Positions 34,318 through 42,377 of a stretch of DNA of 64,000 bases are shown one piece after another; the first letter of the stretch is position 1; the number at the start of each line of letters is the position of its first letter. The notes under the pieces are model-generated. The model saw nothing but the letters and a program-made list of their open reading frames with translations. It was not told where the DNA came from and searched no databases. A program made the position numbers and the translations under genes. Source of the DNA: Mesorhizobium sp. ZC-5 (lineage in GTDB: Bacteria; Pseudomonadota; Alphaproteobacteria; Rhizobiales; Rhizobiaceae); contig NZ_JAOWPT010000005.1 of NCBI RefSeq assembly GCF_025753855.1, forward strand, positions 310,001-374,000, given 5' to 3'.

Positions 34318-34521
34318 ATGGCCACCAGCCATTTCGAACAGATGCTGAAACAGCAGGAGCGCGCGCAGGCCGCTGCTGCCAGGCGTGCGCGTGCACGGGC
34401 GCAGGCCAAGGCCGCCCCTAAACCCGGCAGAGCGGCTGCGCTCGATTTCCTGTCCGGGGTATTTCTTGTCGTTGGCGTCGCGGTGGCCGCCGCAGGTATC
34501 CTCGCCGCGCTGGCGTTCTGA
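34318..34521 (+). CDS. Small membrane protein with basic helical N-terminus
   Basis: 67 residues with AGAGGGAAG before the ATG. The first 40 residues are a charged Ala/Arg/Gln/Lys helix (KQQERAQAAAARRARARAQAKA), and the end is one membrane helix (FLSGVFLVVGVAVAAAGILAALAF). The layout suggests a cytosolic helix tethered to the membrane. Not recognised. It lies about 220 bases before the kdp promoter-like site and may be independent. Confidence 0.55.
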   Translation: MATSHFEQMLKQQERAQAAAARRARARAQAKAAPKPGRAAALDFLSGVFLVVGVAVAAAGILAALAF

Positions 34522-34744: not shown

Positions 34745-34828
34745 ATGCTGGACATCATCCTCATCGCGGTCGGCGTCGTCTCGTTCGCACTCTTCTTTGC
34801 CTACACGTCCGCCTGCGATCATCTCTAG
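34745..34828 (+). CDS. 27-residue hydrophobic ORF at the head of the kdp operon
   Basis: ATG at 34745, stop TAG at 34826-34828. Residues are hydrophobic (DIILIAVGVVSFALFFAYTSACDHL), one membrane helix. A gap of 10 bases separates it from kdpF. Small ORFs like this precede kdpF in some rhizobial kdp loci as far as I recall, but no function is known. It could be a leader peptide or a small Kdp-associated subunit. Confidence 0.5.
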   Translation: MLDIILIAVGVVSFALFFAYTSACDHL

Positions 34829-34838
34829 GAACCGGAAA

Positions 34839-34928
34839 ATGCTGATCGACTACATTCTGGCAGGGGGCGTCACCGTCCTGCTCCTTGCCTATCTCGTCTA
34901 CGCGCTGATCCGTCCCGAACGTTTCTGA
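34839..34928 (+). CDS. kdpF: KdpF, small stabilising subunit of the Kdp ATPase
   Basis: 29 residues with one membrane helix (ILAGGVTVLLLAYLVYALIRPERF). The end LVYALIRPERF is the KdpF signature. In E. coli KdpF is a lipid-like peptide that stabilises the KdpABC complex. It lies 33 bases before kdpA. It is below the usual length cut-off for gene callers. Confidence 0.85.
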   Translation: MLIDYILAGGVTVLLLAYLVYALIRPERF

Positions 34929-34961: not shown

Positions 34962-36665
34962 ATGACCCTCAACGGCTGGATCCAGATCCTCATTTTCTGC
35001 GGGATCATCGTACTTCTCGTGAAACCGCTCGGCGGTTACATGACGCGCGTCTACAATGGCGAGCGCACTTTTTTATCCCTGCTGCTCGCTCCCTTCGAAC
35101 GCCTGCTTTATCGCGCGGCGGGCACCGGCGAGCGTGAGGAGCAGCACTGGACGACCTATGTCGGCGCCATGCTGGCCTTCAACGTGCTGGGTTTCCTGAT
35201 CCTTTATCTGCTGCAGCGTCTCCAGGCTGGGTTGCCCTTCAATCCCGCCGGCATGGCGGCGGTTCCGCAAGAACTTTCGTTCAACACAGCGGTCAGCTTC
35301 GTCACCAACACCAACTGGCAGAACTACGGCGGCGAAAGCACGATGTCCTATCTCGTGCAGATGGCCGGCCTGACGGTGCAGAATTTCGTCTCCGCCGCCA
35401 CCGGCATGGCGCTGGCCGTTGCGCTGATCCGCGGATTTGCCCGCGCGTCGGCAAAGACGGTCGGCAATTTCTGGGTCGACCTGACCCGCTCCACGCTCTA
35501 CGTGCTTCTGCCGATCTGCATCGTGCTGGCGCTGGTCTATGTCTTCCTCGGCGTGCCGCAGACACTTGGCGCCTATGTCGATGCGACCACGCTCGAAGGC
35601 GGCAAGCAGACCATCGCCGTCGGCCCAGCCGCCTCACAACTCGCGATCAAAATGCTCGGCACCAATGGCGGCGGCTTCTTCAACGCCAACTCGGCGCATC
35701 CGTTCGAAAATCCGGATGCCTTGGCCAATTTGATCCAGATGGTCTCGATCTTCGCCATAGGCGCGGCATTCACCAATGTCTTTGGCCGCATGATCGGCGA
35801 CCAGAAGCAAGGCTGGGCGATCTTCGCCGCGATGGGCGTACTGTTCCTCGCCGGCGTGTTCTTCACCTACTGGGCCGAGGCTTCCGGCAATCCGCTGATG
35901 CATGCGCTCGGACTCGAGGGCGGCAACATGGAAGGCAAGGAAGTACGCTTCGGTATCGCGCTTTCGGCGCTGTTCGCCGTCGTCACCACCGCCGCATCAT
36001 GCGGCGCGGTCAACGCCATGCATGATTCGTTCACCGCGCTCGGCGGCATGATCCCGTTGATCAACATGGAACTCGGCGAAGTGATTATCGGCGGCGTCGG
36101 CGCCGGCCTCTATGGCATCCTTCTCTTTGTCATCATCGCCATCTTCGTTTCCGGCCTGATGGTTGGCCGCACGCCGGAATACCTCGGCAAGAAGATCGAG
36201 GCCAAGGAGGTCAAGATGGCGATGCTCGCCATCCTCTGCCTGCCGCTTGCCATGCTCGGCTTCACGGCAATCGCCGTGGTGATGCCGTCGTCGGTCGCCT
36301 CCATCGCCAACCAGGGACCGCACGGGTTCTCGGAGATCCTCTACGCCTACACCTCGGCGACGGCCAACAACGGCTCCGCCTTCGGCGGTCTGACGGGCAA
36401 CACACCCTGGTACAATTTGACCCTCGGCATCGCGATGCTGATGGGCCGCTTCCTGGTGATAGTCCCGGCGCTGGCCATCGCAGGCTCCCTGGCGGCCAAG
36501 AAGACGGTTCCGGCTTCGGCAGGCACCTTCCCCACCAATGGCGGCCTGTTCGTTGGCTTGCTGGTCGGCGTCATCCTGATCGTCGGCGGCCTCACTTTCC
36601 TGCCGGCGCTGGCGCTCGGCCCGATCGCCGAACATCTCGCCATCCTGTCCGGCCAGACGTTCTGA
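34962..36665 (+). CDS. kdpA: Potassium-transporting ATPase subunit KdpA
   Basis: 567 residues of integral membrane protein with about ten segments. Four selectivity-loop regions with the expected [42 protein letters not shown] and [12 protein letters not shown] motifs are visible, the pore loops of the K+ channel-like subunit. It gates the entry of K+ to KdpB. It is followed by a small membrane protein gene and not directly by kdpB. Confidence 0.97.
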
Positions 36666-36673
36666 GGTGTGAG

Positions 36674-36874
36674 ATGTCACCGCATCCGTTGAGCAGCCTG
36701 CGCCATCTGCTTCATCCCCGCGCCGACAAGGCGCGGGAGCGGCAGCCACAGTTTGCCGTCTCCGACGTCATCCTCGTCATGATGATCGTCGTCGCCATAC
36801 TCGTCCTCTTCGTCGAGGGCGCCTCTTATCTCGCTTCTGCCATGCAGATCGAAAACCCGGGACTACTCCAATGA
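36674..36874 (+). CDS. 66-residue membrane protein encoded between kdpA and kdpB
   Basis: Starts 8 bases after the kdpA stop behind a GAGGTGTGAG site. Its stop TGA overlaps the kdpB start ATG (ATGA, 36871-36874), so kdpB translation is coupled to it. The N-terminal 30 residues are basic ([13 protein letters not shown]), then one long hydrophobic helix ([22 protein letters not shown]) follows, and the end is polar. Not KdpF, which lies upstream. I recognise no family. Its position predicts a partner of the Kdp complex, but this is inference. Confidence 0.75.
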
Positions 36875-38970
36875 GCAAAGTCGAATCCGCCAGCATCATG
36901 GATGCCGGCATCATTTTTCCCGCGATCGGCGCTTCGTTCACCAAGCTGGATCCGCGCTCGCTCGCCAGGAACCCCGTGATGTTCGTCGTCGCGGTGGTTT
37001 CCGCGCTGACCACTGTCCTGTTCATCAAGGACGCGGTGCTGGGCAGTGGCGCCGAATACGGCTTCACCCTGCAGATCATCATTTGGCTGTGGTTCACCGT
37101 GCTGTTCGCCAATTTCGCCGAGGCGGTCGCCGAAGGGCGCGGCAAAGCGCAGGCCGATGCACTGCGGCGCACCCGCACCGAAACCACCGCGAAGTTGCTC
37201 GCGCCCGATGGAAAGTCGAGCTACGAGATCGTGCCCGGCACCAGCCTGAAGGTCGGAGACGTCGTAGTCGTCGAAGCCGGCGACATCATCCCCTCCGACG
37301 GCGAAGTGGTGGAGGGCGTCGCCTCCGTCAACGAAGCGGCGATCACCGGCGAATCCGCGCCGGTCATCCGCGAAAGCGGCGGCGACCGCTCGGCCGTCAC
37401 CGGCGGAACGCAGGTGCTCTCCGACTGGATCCGCGTGCGCATTACCGCTGCCGCCGGCTCGACCTTCCTCGACCGCATGATCGGCCTGGTCGAAGGTGCG
37501 CAGCGCAAGAAGACGCCCAACGAGATCGCGCTCAACATCCTGCTTGCCGGCATGACACTGATCTTCGTGCTCGCCGTCGCGACGATCCCGAGCTTTGCCA
37601 GCTATGCGGGCGGCTCGATCCCGATCGTAGTCCTGGTCGCACTGTTCGTGACGCTCATCCCGACCACCATCGGCGCACTGCTGTCGGCGATCGGCATCGC
37701 CGGCATGGATCGGCTGGTGCGCTTCAATGTGCTGGCGATGTCCGGCCGTGCCGTCGAGGCCGCGGGCGACGTCGATACGCTGCTGCTTGACAAGACCGGC
37801 ACCATCACGCTCGGCAACCGCCAGGCGAGCGAATTCCGGCCGATCAAGGGCGTCACCGAGCAGGAGCTGGCCGATGCCGCCCAGCTTGCGTCGCTGGCCG
37901 ACGAGACGCCGGAAGGCCGCTCGATCGTCGTGCTGGCCAAGGAAAAGTATCGCATCCGCGAACGCGACATGCGTTCGCTGCACGCGACTTTCGTGCCGTT
38001 CACTGCGCAGACACGCATGAGCGGCGTCGATGTCGATGGCAGCTCGATCCGCAAGGGGGCGGTTGATGCGATTCTTGCCCATGTCGGGGCCAACCCGACG
38101 GTAGCGGTGGCAAGCGGCGCGGCGACGGCCGTCAAGACGCAGGCCTCGACCGACAGCGTTCGTGAAATCCGCGCCATAGCCGACGAGATCGCCAAGGTCG
38201 GCGGCACGCCGCTCGCCGTTTCGCGCGATGGCCGCCTGCTCGGCATCGTTTACCTGAAGGACATCGTCAAGGGCGGCATCCGCGAACGTTTCGCCGAACT
38301 GCGCCGCATGGGCATCCGCACGGTGATGATCACCGGCGACAACCCGATGACGGCTGCGGCGATCGCGGCGGAAGCCGGCGTCGACGATTTCCTGGCCGAG
38401 GCAACGCCCGAGAACAAGCTGTCGCTGATCCGGGAAGAACAGACCAAGGGCAAGCTGGTCGCCATGTGCGGCGACGGCACCAACGACGCCCCTGCCCTGG
38501 CGCAGGCGGACGTCGGCGTTGCCATGAACACCGGCACGGTGGCCGCCCGCGAGGCCGGCAACATGGTCGATCTCGACAGCGACCCGACCAAGCTGATCGA
38601 GATCGTCGAGATCGGCAAGCAGCTCTTGATGACGCGCGGTGCGCTGACCACCTTCTCTATCGCCAACGACATCGCAAAATATTTCGCCATCATTCCGGCG
38701 ATGTTCGTGGCGTTCTACCCGCAATTGCAGGTGCTGAACATCATGGGCCTGTCGACGCCGCAGTCGGCGATCCTGTCGGCCATCATCTTCAACGCGCTGA
38801 TCATCATCGCGCTGATCCCGCTGGCGCTGCGCGGCGTCAAATACCGCGCCGTCGGTGCGGCGGCCCTGCTCCGGCGCAACCTTCTCATCTATGGCCTTGG
38901 CGGCATTCTGGTGCCGTTCGCCGGCATCAAGGCGATCGATATGATCGTCTCCGGCCTCGGCCTCGCTTAA
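36871..38970 (+). CDS. kdpB: Potassium-transporting P-type ATPase subunit KdpB
   Basis: 699 residues. The phosphorylation site is Asp307 in [11 protein letters not shown]. The TGES motif is [10 protein letters not shown], the hinge motif [20 protein letters not shown] is intact, and [19 protein letters not shown] is the characteristic KdpB segment. It hydrolyses ATP to drive high-affinity K+ uptake with KdpA and KdpC. A run of hydrophobic helices flanks both sides of the catalytic core. It overlaps the upstream small membrane protein gene by 4 bases. Confidence 0.98.
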
Positions 38971-38981
38971 GGAAGAAGACA

Positions 38982-39584
38982 ATGTTGAAACAACTTCGCC
39001 CCGCCCTCGTCATGATCGTCGCGCTGACGGCGATCACCGGCCTTGCCTACCCGCTGGCGATGACCGGCATCGCCGGCGCCTTGTTCCCGCACCAGGCCAA
39101 CGGCAGCCTGATCGTCGAGAACGGCACCGTCGTCGGCTCCGAACTGATCGGCCAGAACTTCACAACCGAGCGTTATTTCCACGGCCGGCCTTCGGTGACG
39201 CTCGGTCCCGACCCGGCCGATCCGTCGAAGACCACCACGGTTCCCTACAACGCCGTGAATTCGATGGGCTCGAACGCCGGTCCCGGCAACGCCGCGCTCA
39301 TCGAACGCGTCAAGGCCGATGTTGAGAAGCTGAAGGCGGAAAATCCATCGCAGCCGGTGCCGATCGACCTCGTCACCTCGACCGGCAGCGGCCTCGACCC
39401 GCACATTTCGCCGGACGCGGCACTTTTCCAGGTACCACGCGTAGCGAAAGCCCGCGGTGTTGCCGAGGACCAGATACGCACGCTGGTCCAAGAGCATACG
39501 GACGGGCGGCTCCTGGGCGTTCTCGGCGAACCGATGGTCAATGTGCTTGCCCTGAACCGCGCGCTCGACGCGGCCGCACGATAG
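38982..39584 (+). CDS. kdpC: Potassium-transporting ATPase subunit KdpC
   Basis: 200 residues from the ATG at 38982 (GGAAGAAGAC upstream), 11 bases after kdpB. One N-terminal membrane helix ([21 protein letters not shown]) precedes the periplasmic domain with [26 protein letters not shown], and [20 protein letters not shown]. KdpC assembles and stabilises KdpA with KdpB. Confidence 0.97.
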
Positions 39585-39677: not shown

Positions 39678-42377
39678 ATGGCCGATGAAGCCGACAGGCG
39701 TCCCTCTCCGGACGCCCTTCTGGAAACCGCGGAACGCGAAGTGCGCGGCAGGCTGCGCATCTTTCTGGGTGCGGCACCCGGCGTCGGAAAAACCTACGAA
39801 ATGCTGCTTGCCGGCCGCGCCCGCAAGGCCGAAGGCGTCGATGTGGTCATCGGCATCGTCGAAACGCATGGACGCAGGGAAACGGAAGCGCTTGTCCAGG
39901 GTCTGGAGACCATTCCGCGGGTCTCGATCGCCTACAAGGGCCGCGCGCTCGACGAGATGGACCTCGACGGCATTCTGAAGCGCCGGCCGGAGCTGGTGCT
40001 GGTCGACGAGCTCGCGCACACCAACGCAGCCGGCAGTCGGCACCCGAAGCGCTATCTCGATATCGAGGAATTGCTGGCGGCCGGCATCGACGTGTACACG
40101 ACCGTCAACATCCAGCACGTCGAAAGCCTGAACGACATCGTCGCCCAGATAACCCGGATACGGGTGCGCGAGACGGTGCCGGATTCCATCATCGACCGTG
40201 CCGATGACATCGAGGTCATCGACCTGACGCCCGGCGACCTGATCGAGCGGCTGAAGCAGGGCAAGGTCTATCTGCCGCGCACCGCTAAAAGCGCCATCGA
40301 GAATTACTTTTCCCCCGGCAACCTGACCGCGCTTCGCGAGCTTGCGCTGCGGCGCACCGCACAGCGCGTCGACGACCAGTTGGTCAGCCACATGCAGGAA
40401 CATGCGATCTCCGGCCCATGGGCGGCCGGCGATCGTGTTCTTGTCTGCGTCGACGAAGCGCCGCGGTCGCTGGCGCTGGTTCGTTACGGCAGGCGGCTTG
40501 CCGAACGCATGCGTGCGCCATGGTCGGTAGTGACCGTCGAGACCACCAGGTCATCGCGGCTTTCCGAAGCGGAGCGCGACAGGATCGCCATGTCCATGCG
40601 CCTTGCTGAAACCCTGGGTGCCGAAACGGCAACGTTGCCAGGCCGCAGCGTTGCCGACGAGGCCATGCGATATGCGCGCGAACGCAATGTCACCCACATC
40701 GTCATCGGCCGGTCCGACAAGTCGCGCTGGCGGGAATGGCTGGAAGGTTCGGCGACACATGACCTCATCCGCATTGCCGGCGATGTCAGTGTCCATGTCG
40801 TCTCAGGGCGCGAGAAGATAGCGGGCGATCCCAAAGGCTCGATACAACTCGGCAGTACAGCCGAATTTTCGCCGAAGCCCTACATCGCCTGCGTGGCTAT
40901 AACCGCGGTGGCCCTTGGTTGCGCGCTGCTGCTGCGGCAATTCCTCGATGTCGACAACATCGGCATCGTCTTCCTGATGGGCGTGCTGACCAGCGCGCTT
41001 TGGTACGGACTGGCGCCGGCGATCTTCACCTCCATCGTCAGCGCGCTGGCCTTCAACTTCTTCTTCCTGCCGCCGCTTTACACGCTGACGCTGGGAAGCG
41101 CCGAAAGCGTCGTCACTTTCGTTTTCTTCCTCATCGTCGCGGGCATTGCCAGCAACCTGACGGCGCGCGTGCGCGGACAGGCGGTTGCGGCAAGGCAGCG
41201 CGCCCGTATGACCGAAGATCTCTATCTCTTTTCGAAGAAGCTTGCCGGCACGGCGACGCTTGATGACGTCCTGTGGGCCACCGCCTTCCAGATCGCGTCG
41301 ATGCTGAAAGTGCGTGTCGTTCTGCTCCTGCCGCAAGACGGTACGATCACCGTCAAGGCGGGCTATCCGCCTGAAGATACGCTCGACCAGGCCGATATCG
41401 CGGCGGCGAAATGGGCCTGGGAAAACGACCGGCCGGCGGGGCGCGGCGCCGATACCTTGCCGGGCGCCAAACGGCTGTTCCTGCCGGTGCGGACGGCGCG
41501 CGGCGCGATCGGCGTGGTCGGCATCGACGATGACCGGCAGGGGCCGTTGCTGACTCCGGAACGGCGGCGCCTGATGGATGCGCTCACTGATCAGGCAGCC
41601 CTTGCCATCGAACGCGTGAACTTGGTCGAAGATCTCGACAACGCCAAGCTTGCGGTCGAAGCCGACCGGCTCCGTTCGGCGCTGTTGACCTCCATATCAC
41701 ACGATCTGAAAACCCCCCTCGCCTCGATCATGGGTGCGGCGGGAACTCTGAAGGAATTTCCAAAAGAACTGGACGACGCCGCCAAGGAAGACCTGCTGGC
41801 GACCATCCAGGATGAATCCGAGCGGCTGAACCGCTTCATCGCCAACCTGCTCGACATGACAAGGCTCGAATCCGGTGCGATCGAGCCGAATTTTGGCATG
41901 CTCGAGGTCAATGAAATTGTCGGCACCGCCCTGTCGCGCGCCAGGAAAATCCTGGCGTCGCACCAGGTCGACGTGGACCTGCCGAAAAACCTGCCGCTGA
42001 TCCGGGTCGACCCCGTGCTCTTCGAGCAGGTGCTGTTCAACCTGTTCGACAATGCGGGCAAATATTCCGAGCCGCAATCGCGCATCCGCGTCCAGGCGTT
42101 CGCCGACGATGGAGCCGTGACCTTGCAGATACTCGACGAAGGACAAGGTATCGCCAGCGAGGACCTGGAGCGTATCTTCGGCAAGTTCACCCGCGCCCAG
42201 AAGGGCGACAGCGTGCGCGCCGGCACCGGGCTTGGGCTTGCCATATGCCGCGGTTTCGTGGAGGCGATGGGCGGCACGATCACCGCCGGCAACCGCACCG
42301 ACCGCACCGGCGCGGTGTTCACGATCAGGATGCCGTTTTTTCCTGGCGAAGCAGACAGAAAGGCCGTCCCGCTGTGA
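39678..42377 (+). CDS. kdpD: Potassium sensor histidine kinase KdpD
   Basis: 899 residues from the ATG at 39678; a TTG one codon earlier is possible. The N-terminal KdpD domain has Walker A GAAPGVGKTYEM (31-42) and VDELAHTN. Next come a USP-like region (DRVLVCVDEAPRSLALVRYG), four membrane helices (about 400-500), a GAF domain, the phosphoacceptor SISHDLKTPLASIMG (His675) and a HATPase domain (NLFDNAGKYSEP, GTGLGLAICRGFV). It senses potassium limitation and osmotic conditions and phosphorylates KdpE. It overlaps kdpE by 4 bases (GTGA). Confidence 0.97.
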   Translation: MADEADRRPSPDALLETAEREVRGRLRIFLGAAPGVGKTYEMLLAGRARKAEGVDVVIGIVETHGRRETEALVQGLETIPRVSIAYKGRALDEMDLDGILKRRPELVLVDELAHTNAAGSRHPKRYLDIEELLAAGIDVYTTVNIQHVESLNDIVAQITRIRVRETVPDSIIDRADDIEVIDLTPGDLIERLKQGKVYLPRTAKSAIENYFSPGNLTALRELALRRTAQRVDDQLVSHMQEHAISGPWAAGDRVLVCVDEAPRSLALVRYGRRLAERMRAPWSVVTVETTRSSRLSEAERDRIAMSMRLAETLGAETATLPGRSVADEAMRYARERNVTHIVIGRSDKSRWREWLEGSATHDLIRIAGDVSVHVVSGREKIAGDPKGSIQLGSTAEFSPKPYIACVAITAVALGCALLLRQFLDVDNIGIVFLMGVLTSALWYGLAPAIFTSIVSALAFNFFFLPPLYTLTLGSAESVVTFVFFLIVAGIASNLTARVRGQAVAARQRARMTEDLYLFSKKLAGTATLDDVLWATAFQIASMLKVRVVLLLPQDGTITVKAGYPPEDTLDQADIAAAKWAWENDRPAGRGADTLPGAKRLFLPVRTARGAIGVVGIDDDRQGPLLTPERRRLMDALTDQAALAIERVNLVEDLDNAKLAVEADRLRSALLTSISHDLKTPLASIMGAAGTLKEFPKELDDAAKEDLLATIQDESERLNRFIANLLDMTRLESGAIEPNFGMLEVNEIVGTALSRARKILASHQVDVDLPKNLPLIRVDPVLFEQVLFNLFDNAGKYSEPQSRIRVQAFADDGAVTLQILDEGQGIASEDLERIFGKFTRAQKGDSVRAGTGLGLAICRGFVEAMGGTITAGNRTDRTGAVFTIRMPFFPGEADRKAVPL

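Follow-up and report, generated by a model that had tools for sequence, protein, structure and literature searches.

The locus described here raises a simple question: what is a gene for a small membrane protein doing between kdpA and kdpB, in the operon of an ATPase, KdpFABC, which is a model P-type ATPase and is described as a complex of four subunits (PMC6255902, PMC10654040)? The window, that is the whole stretch of 64,000 nucleotides of Mesorhizobium sp. ZC-5 that was analysed, carries on its forward strand a kdp operon in the order 27-aa mini-ORF, kdpF, kdpA, 66-aa ORF, kdpB, kdpC, after which comes kdpD. The 66-aa ORF (36674-36874) starts with ATG and is the gene of a small, predicted single-pass membrane protein, to judge by the ORF list, its relatives, dN/dS and helix prediction. 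The known small subunit is encoded separately upstream, as the initial annotation had stated, by kdpF (34839-34928, 29 aa), recognised by PF09604 (E 1.2e-9) and TIGR02115 (36.3 bits, cut-off 26.85). kdpA (34962-36665, 567 aa) matches PF03814 and TIGR00680; kdpB (36871-38970, 699 aa), which has the TGES motif, matches TIGR01497 at 1041.6 bits; kdpC (38982-39584, start read from the sequence) matches PF02669 at E 9e-75; the context includes a kdpD sensor kinase gene (39678-42377), named by sequence and position. In the relatives, matches to a kdpD query lie downstream of kdpC.

The small ORF starts 8 nt past the kdpA stop; the segment 36663-36673 comprises this stop codon and the GAGGTG-like ribosome site that precedes the ATG. 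AlphaFold2 predicts helices at residues 6-12 and 29-60, with a mean pLDDT of 74 that rises to about 95 over residues 31-50. The ribosome site after kdpA, the basic N-terminus and the one long membrane helix, all claimed by the initial annotation, are thus found in the window. The closest named genome among the matches listed is that of Mesorhizobium albiziae DSM 21822 (L004), where identity is 71% for the small protein, 92% for KdpA and 95% for KdpB.

The position of the gene was followed with KdpB as query, taking the best 80 of 577 confirmed matches, a sample which is for this reason biased towards close relatives; in 79 of the 80 loci kdpA could be read ahead of kdpB. An ORF of 35 aa or more that encodes a membrane protein lies in the kdpA-kdpB gap in 71 of these 79 Rhizobiales loci. 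Eight are without it: five have gaps of 15-60 nt, two have gaps of 113 nt, and in L024 (231 nt gap) the helix region is open and a start codon was not found by the rule used. The ORF occurs between kdpA and kdpB more often than by chance: among gaps of at least 90 nt in this sample it is present in 71 of 74 real ones, against 1 of 1480 dinucleotide-shuffled versions.

The reading frame is also conserved as protein. Pairs were drawn from the 71 copies and the window, one member being dropped where mismatch was below 3% and the pair being left unused where it exceeded 33%. For the small gene, 29 independent pairs yield a dN/dS of 0.334 (bootstrap range 0.284-0.390), compared with 1.26 and 1.64 in the two other forward frames and 1.07, 0.47 and 1.67 in the antisense frames, the value of 0.47 presumably being that of the antisense frame that shares third positions. 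The window's own pair gives 0.58 for the small gene, 0.089 for kdpA and 0.065 for kdpB, and 5 pairs of copies from the rearranged operons discussed below give 0.55 (1.20 and 1.06 in the other forward frames), so that the constraint on the small gene is moderate; the family as a whole shows it clearly, the window's pair taken alone only weakly. The search of related kdp operons and the dN/dS estimate, both proposed in the initial annotation, support the small ORF as a protein-coding gene that is conserved, tied to the kdp operon and different from kdpF. An absent ORF or an unconserved frame in related operons, which had been named as evidence against the gene, was looked for as well, and the gene stands, though many lineages are without it.

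A four-base overlap, ATGA, joins the small ORF to kdpB (start 36871) in the window, and had been taken as a sign of translational coupling. The overlap is real in the window but is not a general feature: among the 71 copies from the best 80 of 577 loci, 29 overlap kdpB by four bases, 40 stop 28-58 nt before it and two 86-87 nt before it. Coupling through ATGA is thus lineage-specific and does not hold as a general rule. The small ORF could nevertheless be a leader cistron, whose translation would make the kdpB ribosome site accessible or supply it with ribosomes and would determine the ratio of KdpA to KdpB, the product having little function of its own. Such a role would suit the 29 overlapping copies and the presence of a small ORF ahead of kdpB in rearranged operons too; it would also suit a six-frame scan of the same 80 loci and the window, which found further copies in only three loci, the calling rule itself covering only the site before kdpB. 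Ribosome sites were read in eight printed loci and the window. In the window and in L004 the kdpB site is altered and appears less strong than the GGAG seen in the remaining printed loci, which a leader would also explain. In the printed loci where the genes are separate, kdpB has its own GGAG-type site outside the small ORF, CTGGAG in L010, L030 and L046, the three such loci printed. Together with this separate site, the 42 of 71 copies (same sample) that stop 28-87 nt before kdpB, the conservation of amino acids at a dN/dS of 0.33, and the motif and charge pattern common to the members speak against a leader, and we consider this explanation quite unlikely. In the printed overlap forms of Mesorhizobium (L034) and Phyllobacterium (L014), the C-terminal tail results from translation of the kdpB ribosome site (GGAG); the tail was rejected as a functional domain for these forms, and some of the protein's residues may, for the same reason, be a side effect of that site.

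The small proteins are one family of predicted single-pass membrane proteins, with a median length of 57 aa and without a Pfam or NCBIfam model; a Pfam scan of the window protein gives no match at E up to 1, and its NCBIfam matches are all sub-threshold. Among 139 distinct proteins as called, doubtful ones included, lengths range from 37 to 112 aa and no column is invariant. P-R is frequent in the basic N-terminal part, which is followed by P-P-R, A, S/T, S/D/N/T, I, I and L at the membrane edge; the short motif before the helix is mostly A-S-S/D/N. Mean net charge is +4.2 before the helix and +0.1 after it, the N side being higher in 128 of 139 proteins, and an N-in topology is predicted from this difference by the positive-inside rule, which is well established.

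A family profile was trained on 83 copies from standard operons, while 8 copies from order-family f42 and 31 of the Mesorhizobium type were held out. At E 1e-3 or better it finds 23 of the 31 Mesorhizobium-type copies, 5 of the 8 from f42 and 15 of 17 distinct copies from rearranged operons or from loci where kdpA was not read; the two that it misses are doubtful calls. At the level of sequence, independent support for one family comes from these held-out copies (rearranged operons, Mesorhizobium type and f42). The window protein scores E 4.3e-14 among 4814 background ORFs, its copy being in the training set through L084. The background gives 32 hits at E up to 1, of which 17 are the loci's own copies; three of the other 15 reach 1e-3, namely two second copies and one 27-aa mini-ORF. 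Two halves of the family aligned by hhalign have a probability of 89.2 (E 2.2e-6). With a profile of Mesorhizobium-type copies alone, none of the f42 or rearranged copies is recovered at 1e-3. Doubtful membrane calls were dropped: L203 with its longer copy L256, and L304, which the family profile does not match, and also L342 (118 aa), which is probably still in the training set of the profile. L256 and L304 are counted among the 139 proteins and are labelled as present in the count of changes on the tree described below, and L256 is excluded from the count of independent pairs.

KdpF is likewise a small single-helix membrane protein of the kdp operon; that the small protein is a duplicate of it was rejected. 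KdpF here has 29 aa and ends in P-E-R-F, whereas the small protein has roughly double that length and an extended basic N-terminal part. hhalign between the two gives a probability of 1.9 over 7 columns, against 89.2 for the control halves. The window protein matches no KdpF model in Pfam or NCBIfam; PF09604 is found in 0 of 44 members of the small family at 0.1, and NF011334 (PRK14750, KdpF) in 1 of 44, at E 0.0013, the cut-off of this model being 53 bits.

The distribution of the gene was established from synteny around kdpB, since a whole-genome search with the small-family profile, which has matches in 22 of 397 genomes, is insensitive. Six matches outside kdp were inspected, five from that search and one, in L003, from another; they lie in open frames of 174-468 aa resembling other genes and were taken as chance. 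At the family level a KdpB search has matches in 194 of 395 genomes, and the upper 130 of 196 matches were examined. KdpB identity is at least 81% in 98 of these 130, and kdpA lies upstream in 79 of the 98; 45 of the 79 have the ORF, 25 have gaps shorter than 70 nt, and 9 have longer gaps and no ORF. Where KdpB is at about 68-71% identity, the small ORF is found in 0 of 32 loci of the same 130. Other families of the order contributed a further 58 loci, selected from the best KdpB matches: 18 with the ORF, 36 without it, 2 uncertain and 2 where kdpA was not read; order-family f42 has it in 8 of 8 loci and f35 in 0 of 13. The best matches from other orders of the class have it in 0 of 27 loci, kdpA not being read in L273. 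Among the loci examined, the small gene is thus found only in Rhizobiales and only with one KdpB type.

Loci with the gene group together in the KdpB phylogeny. Its presence takes 19 changes on a tree of 174 KdpB sequences built with FastTree, compared with 49.9 in shuffles, and at least 11 of them fall on well-supported branches; there are 11 independent presence/absence pairs on starred branches and 18 on all branches. With 11 to 19 gains or losses, the pump has been kept without the small gene in many lineages. Our reading, drawn from an unrooted KdpB tree, is a probable origin within Rhizobiales followed by many losses. This distribution also bears on a role in signalling, in which the small membrane protein would act on the KdpD sensor and not on the pump. 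kdpD follows kdpC in the same cluster, and in connection with mycobacterial KdpF the literature discusses membrane peptides that interact with sensor kinases (PMC3618439). The small gene, however, adjoins kdpB and not kdpD, and its presence tracks the KdpB type, being nil in the 32 loci with the 68-71% type; we regard action on KdpD as unlikely.

The association with kdpB is illustrated by operons in which the other subunits differ. In 19 of the 98 loci with KdpB of at least 81% identity (upper 130 of 196 matches), kdpA is not upstream of kdpB, and the order is kdpB, kdpA, kdpC; these are L070 (Phyllobacterium phragmitis) and 18 others (L239-L256). They are chimeric (L070, 5001-9041; L239-L256), with a window-type KdpB and, kdpA being downstream, KdpA and KdpC of another type: identity to the window is 80-84% for KdpB, 43-46% for KdpA and 34-42% for KdpC, and KdpA of the 18 loci is 77-88% identical to that of L070. 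The small gene precedes kdpB in L070 and in 14 of the other 18 loci, following kdpF wherever a KdpF could be identified; in all, 15 of the 19 operons of the family have it, in the order kdpF-small-kdpB-kdpA-kdpC. Three more rearranged operons, in order-family f41 (L303, L304, L310), have the small gene absent or doubtful, which gives 15 of 22 in total. Operon architecture changes twice on the KdpB tree. The most parsimonious account would be loss of kdpA from its original position and arrival of a kdpA-kdpC pair from elsewhere, the small gene having stayed with kdpB; on this reading KdpB (or KdpF) would be a likelier partner than KdpA. An assembly or stability factor, acting transiently and remaining outside the finished complex, would fit a gene placed between those of two large membrane subunits and missing from many lineages; a factor for KdpA-KdpB assembly, however, need not survive a change in the type of KdpA and KdpC, and the gene is kept in 15 of these 22 operons, so that we hold this explanation very unlikely.

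The reading that we favour, and consider probable, is that the small protein serves the Kdp potassium ATPase of Rhizobiales as an accessory subunit or regulator, one that is confined to certain lineages and dispensable. The N-terminus would lie in the cytoplasm after membrane insertion, the single helix would pack on KdpB (or KdpB/KdpF) within the membrane, and the basic tail and the juxtamembrane serine motif would be brought near the cytoplasmic domains of KdpB; as a result the complex would be stabilised or its turnover tuned, as happens with small single-helix partners of other P-type ATPases. Since it is recurrently absent, the protein would modulate the pump and would not be required for transport. 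Inhibition of KdpFABC through phosphorylation of a KdpB serine is known (PMC7535926), and this makes an added layer of pump control by the small protein plausible by analogy.

P2A and P2C ATPases have small single-helix partners, and in the Kdp ATPase the accessory subunits described are KdpF and KdpC (PMC10654040). Phospholamban and sarcolipin (P2A) and FXYD (P2C) are animal proteins of this kind, and the window protein, with a predicted short N-terminal helix and one long helix, resembles them in plan only. Pfam holds phospholamban and FXYD models, and these families are matched neither by the window protein (E up to 1) nor by 44 members of the small family (0.1). The analogy might be extended to a bacterial protein that has converged on phospholamban: with its one helix it would brake or tune KdpB, it would have stayed with KdpB when KdpA and KdpC were replaced, and its juxtamembrane serine motif, on the cytoplasmic side, would switch its grip; we consider this rather unlikely, and, if true, Rhizobiales would gain a post-translational control of K+ pumping that is absent from the four-subunit pump. 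Extra genes inside kdp operons are also represented by KdpZ and by KdpG, which lies between kdpB and kdpC in cyanobacterial kdpABGCD.

In the papers searched, we recognised no account of a Rhizobiales gene located between kdpA and kdpB, and kdp is not mentioned in the main text of PMC10117765. The Sinorhizobium fredii Kdp study, in the text available, describes the operon as kdpF, A, B and C only (PMC9239096), whereas the small gene is present in a plasmid record of the strain studied, CCBAU 45436, at 98.2% identity to the copy of S. fredii USDA 205. In a plasmid collection the USDA 205 copy finds 9 Sinorhizobium records, and the stretch of the gene is unannotated in both of the two inspected; the window protein as query finds none. 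Many soil and plant-associated bacteria have, in the operon of their emergency potassium pump, this unnamed gene, whose product is probably an accessory component or regulator of the pump that has been overlooked. With a fifth gene, restricted to some lineages and linked to KdpB, the set of proteins to express and purify for work on Kdp in rhizobia and agrobacteria would change, and sister lineages naturally without it offer ready comparisons.

Other small ORFs were observed around these operons. A 67-aa ORF upstream of the kdp operon of the window (34318-34521) has a basic N-terminal part and a C-terminal hydrophobic stretch; it does not match the small-family profile, and among the matches listed it has a clear counterpart only in L004 (70% over 57 aa, E 3.7e-13). 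The 27-aa membrane mini-ORF of the ORF list (34745-34828), which lies upstream of kdpF, has only a sub-threshold Pfam match to PsbW (E 0.031) and no NCBIfam match; mini-ORFs of this kind, with a recurrent ...Y..ACD.L end, are found in 29 of the 78 sources with a pattern-recognised KdpF, from the best 80 of 577 loci and the window, the window being counted. Finally, the six-frame scan of the best 80 of 577 loci and the window identifies in 3 of 81 sources a second member of the small family, as an open frame upstream of kdpF (L008, 2027-2461; L023, 2256-2483; L032, 2335-2598), and the family is for this reason not strictly intergenic to kdp. These second members directly follow an unrelated protein of 95-116 aa with the motif GGLFTDRAxAVHFAMFESD.
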